From positions 6,127,836 to 6,191,835 of the forward strand of contig NZ_JXDL01000001.1 in assembly GCF_001590795.1 (NCBI RefSeq): a DNA stretch of 64,000 nt. Direction: 5' to 3'. The DNA comes from Bradyrhizobium sp. AT1. GTDB taxonomy: Bacteria > Pseudomonadota > Alphaproteobacteria > Rhizobiales > Xanthobacteraceae. The notes under the pieces were generated by a model. It did no database searches. It worked only from the letters and a program-made list of their open reading frames with translations, and had not been told where the DNA came from. The position numbers and the translations under genes were made by a program. The stretch's first letter is position 1. Each line of letters starts with the position of its first letter. Shown here piece after piece: positions 54,587-59,212 of this stretch.

Positions 54587-54902
54587 GACAGTTTAGCCGG
54601 TCCCGCGCAAGGGACCAGAATTTGGGATCGACATATCCGAGGCGGTTGATATCGGTCTGTCCCTGCTCCGGAAATTCCAGCGTCGGCGTGACATGGCGGC
54701 GGCCAGCTGGATGCCGGCTCGGCATGGCCGGGAGATTCCAGCTCGGGCGCCACCGCCGCACAGCTTCCAGAAAAATTCCCCGACCATGTCGACTTTGTCG
54801 GAGGTCGTTCGTCTTACAGGCGAACGCGGGTCTGGTGGCCCGCCGACCATTCGTCATTCCGCGGCGGGCCTGGCGTCCCCGCGCACAATCGGGAGGAACC
54901 GC
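54587..54902. other. Divergent intergenic region
   Basis: 316 bp with no gene. It contains a dyad CGTTCG-N9-CGAACG (54806-54826) about 75 bp before the YCII gene, and GGGAGGAA as the ribosome binding site of that gene. Confidence 0.4.
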
Positions 54903-55307
54903 ATGCGATTCATGATGCTGATGATCCCGCTCGGTTATGAGACTGCGCCGCCGGACGTTCAGCTTGATCCCGAGCGTGTCGCGGCGATGATGCACTACAA
55001 CGAGGCGCTGAAGGACGCAGGCGTGCTGATCACGCTCGACGGCCTGCATCCGCCGTCGACGGGTGCACGGGTCTCGTTTGCGACCGGCAAGCCCATCGTC
55101 ACCGACGGCCCATTCGCTGAGGCCAAGGAAGTCCTGGGCGGGTATTGGATGATCGAGGTCGCCTCGCGTGCCGAGGCCATTGCCTGGGCCAAGCGATGCC
55201 CGGCCTCGCCGAACGAAATCATCGAGGTCCGGCAGGTGCAGGAGATCAGCGACTTTCCGCCTGACGTGCAGGCCGCCGCCGCCGGCTTTGGCGACCTGAA
55301 GACATAG
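54903..55307 (+). CDS. YCII-related (DGPF) protein
   Basis: 134 residues, starting MRFMMLMIPLGYE after GGGAGGAACCGC. The DGPF motif is VTDGPFAEAKEVLGGYWMIEV. It is a paralogue-like relative of 49391, and another YCII gene follows. No sigma factor is next to it; the ECF42 gene is 4 kb upstream. Possibly part of its regulon. Confidence 0.87.
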   Translation: MRFMMLMIPLGYETAPPDVQLDPERVAAMMHYNEALKDAGVLITLDGLHPPSTGARVSFATGKPIVTDGPFAEAKEVLGGYWMIEVASRAEAIAWAKRCPASPNEIIEVRQVQEISDFPPDVQAAAAGFGDLKT

Positions 55308-55368
55308 CCGTGACCGCCCGCGGATCAATCCGCGGCTTTGGTTGATCCATCAACAGAGGAGAGAGCCT

Positions 55369-55731
55369 ATGAGCACCGACACCTATCTCGCCGTTTTCCT
55401 CGGCAGCAAGACCAGCCCGAAATGGGCTGCGTGGAACGCGCTGTCCGAAGCCGAGCGCAAGGCGAAGGAGCAGGAGGGCATCGCGGCCTGGAAGGGCTGG
55501 GTCGAGAAGCACCAGGGTGCGATCCAGGCCATGGGCGGTCCGCTCGGCAAGACCAAGCAGGTCGACGGCAAAGGCGTCGCCGACATCGCCAACGAGATGG
55601 GCGCTTTCACCGTGATCCGGGCCGCGTCCCATGAAGCCGCGGCAAAAATGTTCGAGAACCACCCGCACTTCGCGATCTTCCCGGGCGAGCGCGTCGAGAT
55701 CATGCCGGTGCTGCCGATCCCGGGCGGTTAG
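55369..55731 (+). CDS. YCII family protein
   Basis: 120 residues from ATG 55369 (GAGGAGAG upstream). Sequence MSTDTYLAVFLGSKTSPKW and the C-terminal HFAIFPGERVEIMPVLP fit YCII-like small proteins (dimeric ferredoxin-like fold). Function unknown. It follows the YCII gene by 61 bp on the same strand. Confidence 0.82.
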   Translation: MSTDTYLAVFLGSKTSPKWAAWNALSEAERKAKEQEGIAAWKGWVEKHQGAIQAMGGPLGKTKQVDGKGVADIANEMGAFTVIRAASHEAAAKMFENHPHFAIFPGERVEIMPVLPIPGG

Positions 55732-55804
55732 GCCTCGCCGCTCCGATTGCGGGAAATACGGGTTAACCAATCCGCCCGCCGCTAGTGACCTTCGCGCCCG
55801 GCTC

Positions 55805-55823
55805 ATGTAAAAGTCGTTCACAT
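55805..55823. promoter_or_regulatory. Operator O1 at the start of the TetR gene
   Basis: ATGTAAAAGTCGTTCACAT, overlapping the TetR start codon at 55822. It matches 15 of 19 bases with the palindrome at 56630-56648. Consistent with autoregulation. Confidence 0.6.
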
Positions 55824-56562
55824 GAGCTGGCGCAAGGAGCAGCGCCGCGCCGAGCGCGGCTATCATCACGGCAATCTGAAGGAAGCACTTCTGCAGGCCG
55901 CTCTCGGGCTGATTGCCGAGAAGGGCGCGGCCGGCTTCACCTTTGCCGACGCCGCGCGCATGGCCGGCGTCAGCGCGGCGGCGCCCTATCGGCATTTCCG
56001 TGACCGCGACGAGCTGTTGTCCTCGATCGCCCAGCGCGGCTTCGAGCAATTCGAGGCGCGCCTGACCGCGGCCTGGGACGACGGGCGGCCCGATACGGTC
56101 ACGGCGTTCGAGCGCGTCGGCAAGGCCTATCTCGCCTTCGCCCGCGAGGAGCCCGCCTTCTACAACGCGATGTTCGAATCGGGCCTGCCGGTCGATGCCA
56201 ATCCGGCGCTGCAGGCCGCCAGCGAGCGCGCTTTCAACATCATTCGCGCCGCGGCCGAGCGGCTCGCGGCGTTGGCGCCGCCCGGCACGCCGCGACCGCC
56301 GGCGATGATGATGGCGCTGCACATCTGGTCGATGGCGCACGGCGTGGCCTCGTTGTTCTCGCGCGGGGATGCCGCGCGGCGAAAGCTGCCGATGTCGCCG
56401 GACGAACTGCTCGAAGCCGAGGTGCTGATCTATCTGCGTGGCCTCGGCTTCCCGACCGATCGCCGTCCGCCAGCCAAGAGCGCCGAGCCGCCGCCGGTGC
56501 CACCGGAGGCGTCCTCCGGTTCAGGCGTGCCGCCCGGCGGTCCTTGGGGCAAGCCGAAATAA
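55822..56562 (+). CDS. TetR-family regulator (WHG type)
   Basis: 246 residues. Helix-turn-helix: AAGFTFADAARMAGVSAAAPYRHFRD (about 34-58, quoted in part as FADAARMAGVSAAAPYRHF). The C-terminal half includes HIWSMAHGVASLF, the WHG-type ligand domain. The proline-rich tail (GSGVPPGGP) is extra. Operators O1 and O2 bracket this gene, so it probably represses itself and the next gene at 56681. Confidence 0.9.
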   Translation: MSWRKEQRRAERGYHHGNLKEALLQAALGLIAEKGAAGFTFADAARMAGVSAAAPYRHFRDRDELLSSIAQRGFEQFEARLTAAWDDGRPDTVTAFERVGKAYLAFAREEPAFYNAMFESGLPVDANPALQAASERAFNIIRAAAERLAALAPPGTPRPPAMMMALHIWSMAHGVASLFSRGDAARRKLPMSPDELLEAEVLIYLRGLGFPTDRRPPAKSAEPPPVPPEASSGSGVPPGGPWGKPK

Positions 56563-56602
56563 AATTACGCCAATAATCACGCGGGCGTGTCTGGCGGCCA
56601 GC

Positions 56603-56648
56603 TTGACAAAATCGCGGGATCGTCTAGCTATGTAAATGTTATTTACAT
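56603..56648 (+). promoter_or_regulatory. Promoter with operator O2 before the DUF2852 gene
   Basis: -35 TTGACA (56603-56608) and -10 TAGCTA (56625-56630), 16-bp spacer. A perfect 19-bp palindrome ATGTAAAT-GTT-ATTTACAT (56630-56648) begins at the -10 and covers the start of transcription, a classic repressor position. Confidence 0.7.
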
Positions 56649-56680
56649 TCACAACGGCTGATGCCGTCATGGAGAAGGAA

Positions 56681-57499: not shown

Positions 57500-58393
57500 G
57501 TGCGGATCGTATCGATCGTTCGGAAAGTGGCCCCTCGCTGCTATCCCAATTATCTCAAGGCCTTTGAAGACGGCGACGACATCTTCGAGCGCTTCAAGAT
57601 CAATACTCCGCTGCGCATCGCGCACTTCCTCGCTCAGGCCCTGTACGAGACGGGCCGCGGCACCGTTCTGTTCGAGAGCCTCAAATACAAGACTGCAGCG
57701 CGTCTTCTCGAGATTTTCGGTGTTGGCCGTCATAGCGCGGCGATCCGGCCCGATGAGGTCGATCAATTTCTCAACAACGATCGCGCGTTGGCCGAGCGCG
57801 TCTATGGACTGGGCAATCCGAAGAAGGCAAAGGAGCTCGGCAACACCAAGTCCGGAGACGGATACAAATATCGTGGCGGCGGCCTGCTGCAGACGACGGG
57901 CGGAGCCAACTATGCGCGCATGGGCAAACTTGCCGGCGTGGATTTCTACAACAACCCGGATATGATCGTCGCACCCGAAGCGGCCCTCCTTCCCGCGCTC
58001 AACGAATGGAATGAGGGAGGCCTGAACGCTTATGCGGATCAGAACAATATCCGTGCGATCACGCGGACGATTAACGGCGGTTACAACGGCTTGAGCGGCC
58101 GGACGGAATTGTTCGAGATCGTGTGGAGCGCGATCGGCAAGGGTGGCGCGAACCAGGTGGCCTGGAAAACCGCGACTGCTTCGGATGAAACGCGCGAGCT
58201 CCAGGAGGCCCTGAACGACCTCGGAGCCGAACCGCCGCTCGTCGTGGATGGACGATATGGTCCCGCCACCGCGCAGGCGGTCGAGTGGTTTCAAAACCAC
58301 GCCAAGATACCGGTCGATGGAAATGCAGGCTTGGTCACGCTGGCGGCGCTGAAGCTCCGCCTGGACACCCGGACCGCTTCGGAGCGCACCTGA
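57500..58393 (+). CDS. GH19-type peptidoglycan/chitin hydrolase with peptidoglycan-binding domain
   Basis: 297 residues, GTG start after GGGAG. Residues about 1-215 resemble GH19 lysozymes: ALYETGRGTVLFE (Glu50 and Glu59 as candidate catalytic residues), YKYRGGGLLQTTGGANYARMG and ITRTINGGYNG. Residues about 225-290 form a PG_binding_1 domain (LNDLGAEPPLVVDGRYGPATAQAV). No signal peptide, so export needs a holin, a secretion system or lysis. Phage endolysins and secretion-system effectors share this layout. It is followed by a second hydrolase. Confidence 0.85.
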   Translation: MRIVSIVRKVAPRCYPNYLKAFEDGDDIFERFKINTPLRIAHFLAQALYETGRGTVLFESLKYKTAARLLEIFGVGRHSAAIRPDEVDQFLNNDRALAERVYGLGNPKKAKELGNTKSGDGYKYRGGGLLQTTGGANYARMGKLAGVDFYNNPDMIVAPEAALLPALNEWNEGGLNAYADQNNIRAITRTINGGYNGLSGRTELFEIVWSAIGKGGANQVAWKTATASDETRELQEALNDLGAEPPLVVDGRYGPATAQAVEWFQNHAKIPVDGNAGLVTLAALKLRLDTRTASERT

Positions 58394-58510
58394 AGCGGTT
58401 GCCGTCTTTAGACGTGCGAACTTCGCCGGAGCTTTGCGGTCACTTCGCAGAGAAGTCTCGATATTGAGGCCGAATTTTTAGCGAGTCTGATTAGGCAAAA
58501 GGAAAATAGC

Positions 58511-59212
58511 ATGACCGACGGCGAGAAGATGCTGAGGCTGGCCGAGACCCGCATTGGTGAGAAATACGTCAACGTCTGCGTGCCGAAGAACAACAAGAAC
58601 TGGCACGGTCCGTGGGACTGCGCGGAGTTCATGTCCTGGCTGGTGTATCAGGTCGGCGGCTTTCTTTACGGCTGCGTCGACGACAACGGCAATCCCGCAA
58701 CGGTCGAGGCCTATACGGGGGCCTGGAAGAGCGATTCACAGAAGCTGGGAAAGCGCGTTCCGTGGCAGCAGGCAGCCTCAACGGTCGGAGGCATTCTCCT
58801 GCGCTATCCACCCGGACCAGGCATGATGGGACACATCGTCGTGTGTGACGGCAAAGGCGGCACCGTCGAGGCGATGGGCACGGCCTATGGCGTTCGTCGC
58901 GGCAAGGTGTCGGGCCGCAATTGGGACACGGGCGTCTTTCTCCCGAACTTCACGTATCGGGAGGCGGGTGAAGACCTCGAGCTGGCCGGGCCGAGCCAGC
59001 TATATGCGCTCGGGCAGCCGGGCATGAAGGCGTCCGTCGTTCGAGATATTCAGCGCGCCTTGAAGGATCTCGGGTTCAATCCAGGGCCCATCAACGGTGA
59101 GTACAACGATCTCACGGTGGCGGCGGTCGCGGCGTTTCAGGCGACCAAAGGCCTCATCGTCGACGGCCAGGTCGGGCCCCAGACGGCAAAGCGCTTGAAG
59201 GTCGAACTCTAG
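58511..59212 (+). CDS. NlpC/P60-like hydrolase with peptidoglycan-binding domain
   Basis: 233 residues. A candidate papain-like catalytic pair: Cys37 in PWDCAEFMSWLVYQ and His108 in GHIVVCDGKGGTVEAMG. Residues about 165-231 are a PG_binding_1 domain (IQRALKDLGFNPGPINGEYND). No signal peptide. It is likely an amidase or endopeptidase working with the preceding GH19-type enzyme, 117 bp upstream on the same strand. Whether the Cys/His pair is catalytic needs structural comparison. Confidence 0.78.
   Translation: MTDGEKMLRLAETRIGEKYVNVCVPKNNKNWHGPWDCAEFMSWLVYQVGGFLYGCVDDNGNPATVEAYTGAWKSDSQKLGKRVPWQQAASTVGGILLRYPPGPGMMGHIVVCDGKGGTVEAMGTAYGVRRGKVSGRNWDTGVFLPNFTYREAGEDLELAGPSQLYALGQPGMKASVVRDIQRALKDLGFNPGPINGEYNDLTVAAVAAFQATKGLIVDGQVGPQTAKRLKVEL

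Follow-up and report, generated by a model that had tools for sequence, protein, structure and literature searches.

The tetR gene and the DUF2852 gene that follows it in Bradyrhizobium sp. AT1 most probably (at a probability of about 0.88) form a local circuit in which a TetR repressor controls both DUF2852 and its own gene, with binding and repression predicted from the sequence. The window, i.e., the whole stretch of 64,000 nucleotides analysed here, lies within the 7.53-Mb genome (G000), and both genes are found on its plus strand (Table 1). In the mechanism proposed, the TetR protein would bind the motif ATGTRAA-N5-TTYACAT, which at the DUF2852 promoter would take the form of an element over the end of the -10 box and the +1, made up of two overlapping dyads 6 bp apart, probably occupied by two dimers that would block the RNA polymerase. 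At the tetR promoter, a single dyad reaching from the -10 box to the start codon would provide autorepression, and a ligand, probably hydrophobic, in the C-terminal domain of TetR would bring about its release and the induction of the DUF2852 membrane protein.

The N-terminal helix-turn-helix of the tetR product matches PF00440 (TetR_N) with an E-value of 1.7e-9 and 37.7 bits, against a Pfam cut-off of 24, while its C-terminal domain matches PF13305 (TetR_C_33; E 1.4e-16, 61.4 bits, cut-off 26.8), which, together with the fold match, identifies an all-helical C-terminal ligand and dimer domain. The predicted fold resembles TetR proteins, the top-ranked being 3on2 (Z 19.2, rmsd 3.8, 187 residues aligned), with 1zk8 tied at 18.8. 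The DUF2852 protein scores 163.5 bits against PF11014, above the Pfam cut-off of 22.5, and its closest matches in the named relatives are 98 percent identical; its model, which has a low overall confidence (pTM 0.26), contains three helices, at residues 32-59 (long, hydrophobic and of the membrane type), 64-91 and 106-151.

Other genes surround the pair. Directly upstream of tetR, the window has two adjacent YCII-type genes (54885-55731), the second of which is below the Pfam cut-off, and downstream of DUF2852 (57500-59212) there are two genes with peptidoglycan-binding domains, one weakly similar to glycoside hydrolase 19 and the other weakly CHAP-like.

Table 1. Features of the tetR-DUF2852 locus, in window coordinates
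Feature	Position	Strand	Description or basis
-35-like box GTGACC, tetR promoter	55785..55790	+	putative promoter role
Candidate operator site 1, ATGTAAAAGTCGTTCACAT	55805..55823	+	ends in the AT of the tetR ATG (55822)
-10-like box TAAAAG within site 1	55808..55813	+	putative, from geometry; 17-nt spacer
tetR, TetR/AcrR-family regulator, 246 aa	55822..56562	+	TetR_N and TetR_C_33
-35 box TTGACA, DUF2852 promoter	56603..56608	+	spacing of TTGAC kept across genera
-10-like box TAGCTA, running into site 2	56625..56630	+	putative; 16-nt spacer
Candidate operator site 2, ATGTAAATGTTATTTACAT	56630..56648	+	perfect palindrome; 8-bp arms, 3-nt centre
Second, weaker dyad, ATGTTATTTACATTCACAA	56636..56654	+	shifted 6 bp from site 2
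Shine-Dalgarno-like GGAG of the DUF2852 gene	56671	+	sequence
DUF2852 gene, 163 aa	56681..57172	+	PF11014, E 2.5e-48

The two 19-mers that an earlier note had placed at 55805-55823 and 56630-56648 are found there exactly, and direct comparison agrees with its count of 15 identical positions out of 19. As had also been proposed, site 2 is a perfect palindrome, in which the arms pair fully around the centre, and site 1 overlaps the start codon of the regulator, of which it supplies the first two bases; the arms of site 1 pair at six of eight positions. A search of the window for the shared pattern with up to three mismatches returned five matches, in comparison with a mean of 0.08 in shuffles, and these are both strands of sites 1 and 2, together with the stretch at 56636-56654 that overlaps site 2.

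Throughout the 7.5-Mb genome, the exact motif ATGTRAAN5TTYACAT occurs at two places only, which are sites 1 and 2, so that the claim that no other surrounding gene has the site is true genome-wide at the exact consensus; the next-best matches are nine places with two mismatches each. The reversed pattern, used as a control, gave four matches per strand in the genome at up to two mismatches, against 11 for the pattern itself, and at zero mismatches it was matched in one of the 198 family genomes. A chance origin of the sites was rejected on the window shuffles, the genome-wide count and this control.

At site 2, the conservation extends beyond the palindrome to ATGTAAATGTTATTTACATTCAC, in which columns 20, 22 and 23 do not vary among the 31 genera and column 21 is C in 26 of them. 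Taken together, site 2 and the second dyad make up a 25-bp element, the first 23 bp of which are conserved, and the second dyad departs from the motif at three positions in the window, at two in six genera, and at up to five elsewhere; in one genus (L126), the 25-bp element is symmetric at every one of its ten outer positions. No second dyad was seen at site 1, which is a single dyad, and the arrangement suggests that two dimers would bind at the DUF2852 site and one dimer at the tetR site.

The geometry of the DUF2852 promoter agrees with the earlier placement of site 2 on its -10 and +1, as TTGAC begins 27-28 nt before the site in 25 of 31 genera, and the first column of the -10 box is T in 23 of the 31 and the second is A in 26; transcription of DUF2852 would start inside the site 2 palindrome. 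At the tetR promoter, the start of an xYGAC-type box is exactly 20 nt upstream of site 1 in 26 of 30 genera. Given that the TAAAAG box, with its spacer, would put the start at the ATG or just before it, this geometry suggests a tetR mRNA that is leaderless or nearly so. Such an mRNA is plausible in view of the many starts at or near start codons in B. japonicum, where the available part of PMC4842269 gives 320 mapped starts that precede start codons by 0-10 nt and 192 that coincide with them. The same part of that source reports an extended -10, TGnTA, for leaderless genes, to which the -10 region of tetR has no exact match, and no mention of the tetR gene was found in it.

The conservation of this arrangement was followed through the genus by a DUF2852 search with one genome per species, in which the best 80 of 222 relatives were kept and to which eight loci from further genus genomes were added, giving 88 loci, of which 85 are distinct (L090, L093 and L094 duplicate L084, L070 and L076). 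A TetR gene lies just upstream of DUF2852 and both sites are present in all 88, with no more than two mismatches to the asymmetric pattern, a result that is weak when taken alone, given that close relatives have much sequence in common. The TetR of L049 was matched in two frames, and three of the 80 named loci (L026, L031 and L075) have titles other than Bradyrhizobium. One of these, L031, titled Frankia sp. RB7 (JAUEPE010000010.1), holds a complete Bradyrhizobium-type locus with a DUF2852 that is 96 percent identical, which probably reflects a misnamed record or a mixed assembly.

In the family, DUF2852 was found in 180 of 198 genomes, in 38 of 41 genera, and 42 loci were drawn from 31 of these 38, the other seven being without coordinates (one of the seven, g13, was later seen in L216). 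TetR lies within 3 kb upstream of DUF2852 in 41 of the 42 loci, the exception being L109, where it is about 5.3 kb upstream with an exact site of its own. All 42 have both sites, each in front of its gene (site 1 at tetR, site 2 at DUF2852) and with up to two mismatches, so that the search of related genomes for TetR/DUF2852 pairs, as the earlier note had proposed, finds both sites in every genus and family locus.

With one locus per genus, site 2 carries 1.79 bits of information per position (31 genera), while its flanks have 0.21 upstream and 0.25 downstream; site 1 carries 1.36, against 0.28 upstream and 0.58 in the downstream flank, which is coding; given the low information of these turned-over flanks, both sites stand out. 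The distance from the start of site 1 to the tetR ATG is 17 nt in 36 of the 42 rows that have a TetR, the window among them, and in the other six (L108, L110, L118, L123, L127 and L140) site 1 is kept though tetR starts 31-34 nt after the start of the site, which indicates that it is conserved as a DNA element and not as coding sequence.

The exact motif is present in 144 of the 180 family genomes with DUF2852 and in none of the 18 without it (Fisher 6e-12), and those that were read among the remaining 36 have sites with one or two mismatches. In the 18 genomes without DUF2852, the best TetR match has an E-value of 9.4e-25, in comparison with 1.1e-106 for the ortholog of G164. The TetR alignment excluded L146 and L163, in which a stop lies inside the translated ranges.

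At the level of the class, DUF2852 was found in 40 of 241 sampled genomes and the TetR ortholog (E of 1e-45 or lower, with the 12 best candidates scored per genome) in 29, of which 28 also have DUF2852 (Fisher 5e-26). The cut-off was chosen after a genome scored as lacking TetR had reached 1.3e-43; the one genome with a TetR ortholog and without DUF2852, G291, has the weakest match of the 29, and at a stricter cut-off of 1e-70 all 27 genomes with the TetR ortholog have DUF2852.

The site itself was sought in 37 of the 40 DUF2852 genomes (G000, which holds the window, G396, and the truncated G339 were left out). When sites with up to two mismatches are counted in the roughly 220 nt that precede the DUF2852 core, all 26 loci with a TetR ortholog are positive, as are 2 of the 11 without one; the background is 3 in 482 windows. 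Both exceptions are DUF2852 genomes below the TetR ortholog cut-off that have a site with two mismatches and an adjoining diverged TetR, and the nine site-less loci, from five families, have DUF2852 without a close TetR and best matches of four to six mismatches. Counted by family, the site is present in 15 of 15 with the TetR ortholog and in one of six without it (Fisher 3e-4).

In family f17, all three genomes read have the TetR ortholog, with an identity of 46-49 percent, at least 77 kb from DUF2852 or on another contig, and a pair of exact sites some 58 bp from each other stands before DUF2852 (L149, L152 and L155). This separation supports a TetR that acts in trans and argues against conservation by linkage. 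No site was found at the f17 tetR itself within the 3.6 kb read in any of the three genomes and, judged from these sequences, the site follows the target gene and a tetR can do without autoregulation. The autoregulated TetR/DUF2852 unit of the earlier note is strongly supported by the comparison of genomes, in that orthologous pairs carry the motif, but autoregulation is not universal, as the f17 tetR shows.

A first alternative to the repressor circuit is that another regulator binds the palindromes and has been co-inherited with the pair by chance, and the rise of DUF2852 in microoxia and in bacteroids of B. diazoefficiens, given in the available part of PMC6515984, means that another regulator may also act. 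This explanation is nonetheless very unlikely, given that the site follows the TetR ortholog (26/26 against 2/11, both exceptions with a diverged TetR adjacent), that the sites are kept where TetR is unlinked and absent from nine of nine loci, in five families, without a close TetR, and that tetR itself has the same site. It is also quite unlikely that TetR is an activator or a dual regulator instead of a simple repressor: the two f17 sites, one well upstream of the other, would be in keeping with such a role, but site 2 is just behind TTGAC and over the end of the -10 and the +1, which is a repressing position, in 25 of 31 genera.

A third alternative is that the sites are RNA hairpins or reflect a coding constraint, imposed by the start codon that site 1 overlaps or by a short frame from the ATG at 56636, which in the window is in frame with DUF2852, and the arms of site 2 could indeed form an 8-bp stem. 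The hairpin was rejected on the arm-pair counts across genera, as site 2 allows all eight pairs in 19 of 31 genera and site 1 in one of 30, and no two-sided change was seen at site 2. Coding conservation was rejected for both site 1 and the in-frame ATG on start shifts, stops and variable spacing, given that site 1 persists in 6 of 42 rows although the gene begins beyond it, that the inner ATG reads ATGTAA, a stop, in 6 of 31 genera, and that the distance from site 2 to residue 1 of DUF2852, over the loci whose DUF2852 aligns from that residue, is 33-69 nt and not in steps of three, which means that the frame is not kept. Taken together, hairpins and coding constraint make an extremely improbable account of the sites, and the TetR repressor circuit remains the preferred reading.

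Sites of this kind are also found outside the pair. Among the family matches listed, additional exact copies of the motif pointed to a gene for a DUF2306 membrane protein (PF10067), and 6 of 19 genomes with DUF2306 have a site 42-70 nt before this gene, exact in five (L229, L230, L234, L241 and L247) and with one mismatch in L245, although the five exact genomes had entered the set because of the extra motif and, among the other 14, only G281 is positive. The remaining 13 of the 19 have none, with best matches of five or six mismatches, and TTGAC lies just upstream of the site in five of the six. The DUF2306 protein has no match at an E-value of 1e-12 in the genome that holds the window, and a fungal DUF2306 protein has recently been linked to an epoxidation, according to the available part of PMC12895699. 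The earlier claim of a motif specific to the TetR/DUF2852 pair thus stands for the genome of the window, where it is exact only there, but it does not hold strictly in the genomes with the DUF2306 site.

Three further exact copies were observed. On a small contig of G138 (L218:2501-2519), the 19 bp of site 2 recur exactly, some 70 nt upstream of a cytochrome c gene and with no TTGAC box, and may represent either a second target or a foreign contig; in G264 (L215:2501-2519), an exact site with an upstream TTGACA box lies just before an ankyrin-repeat gene; and the third exact motif of the Bradyrhizobium genome G227 (L219:1501-1519), which has no listed reading frame of at least 90 aa just after it, is perhaps there by chance.

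Binding by two dimers is known from other TetR-family repressors. According to the available part of PMC4150764, QacR, CgmR, SlmA and CprB bind as two dimers, and the elements of QacR, CgmR and CprB are 22-32 bp long. The present system is like the QacR/CprB type in its TetR fold and in an element that goes beyond a single 15-17-bp operator (PMC4150764, same part), with what may be overlapping dyads, the second of them imperfect, but it is unlike it in that the target is the DUF2852 membrane protein and not an exporter, that site 1 is a single dyad, and that binding by two dimers is a prediction here. The best PDB sequence match of the tetR product is also 3on2 (E 4.7e-16), a TetR-like protein from Rhodococcus sp. 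RHA1, and a YHHG N-terminus is common to both, but the identity is 26 percent and the entry title, which describes the function as unknown, names neither a target nor a ligand. The kind of system, a local TetR repressor, is a known one; here its target is uncharacterised, and how deeply it is conserved and how narrowly its motif is distributed are unusual.

DUF2852 has a weak similarity (E 0.033) to PspB (TIGR02976), a small membrane protein of envelope stress with a short membrane helix and a helical tail, a layout that DUF2852 has in common with it. An assignment of DUF2852 as PspB was rejected, as the 14.5 bits against TIGR02976 fall short of the NCBIfam cut-off of 51.7. The ligand-sensing role that the earlier note had given to DUF2852 is not borne out by its modelling as a membrane-type helix and two further helices at a low pTM. 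In TetR systems, the C-terminal domain of the regulator is the sensor, and the TetR product, rather than DUF2852, would be expected to be the sensor here; no common ligand was found for such TetR regulators.

The DUF2852 protein of B. diazoefficiens, bll7160, is up by a log2 of 2.5 in microoxia in the available part of PMC6515984, which also gives 2.1-fold for its transcript and 4.9-fold in bacteroids, and marks it as neither a NifA+RpoN nor a FixK2 target. It is presumably the ortholog of the DUF2852 of the window, given that DUF2852 is present in 97 of 98 genus genomes, in 96 of these as a single copy. Its microoxic induction neither supports nor excludes control by TetR. A mapB envelope mutant of Brucella suis has a reduced amount of BR2114, the DUF2852 protein of this species, according to the available part of PMC6377625, and a role of DUF2852 in the envelope may be guessed from this decrease and the induction of bll7160. 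Both sources name DUF2852 and, in the parts available, assign it no function, and a literature search on the regulator, the operator and bll7160/bll7161 found, among the entries listed, no study of the TetR/DUF2852 pair. One speculative and rather unlikely extension is that TetR is dedicated to sensing a membrane-derived or oxidised lipid-like signal and controls a small set of envelope genes, with DUF2852 as its core and DUF2306 added in some lineages, as an alphaproteobacterial envelope-adaptation module that is phage-shock-like though unrelated, and switched on both in microoxia and in root nodules.

Finally, an operator that is kept despite an unlinked regulator points to a narrow circuit maintained across a long evolutionary distance. 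The regulator-operator pair, which occurs in 15 further families, would provide a reporter for screening for the inducing signal, and the signal that frees the predicted repressor may in turn offer a way to the purpose of DUF2852.
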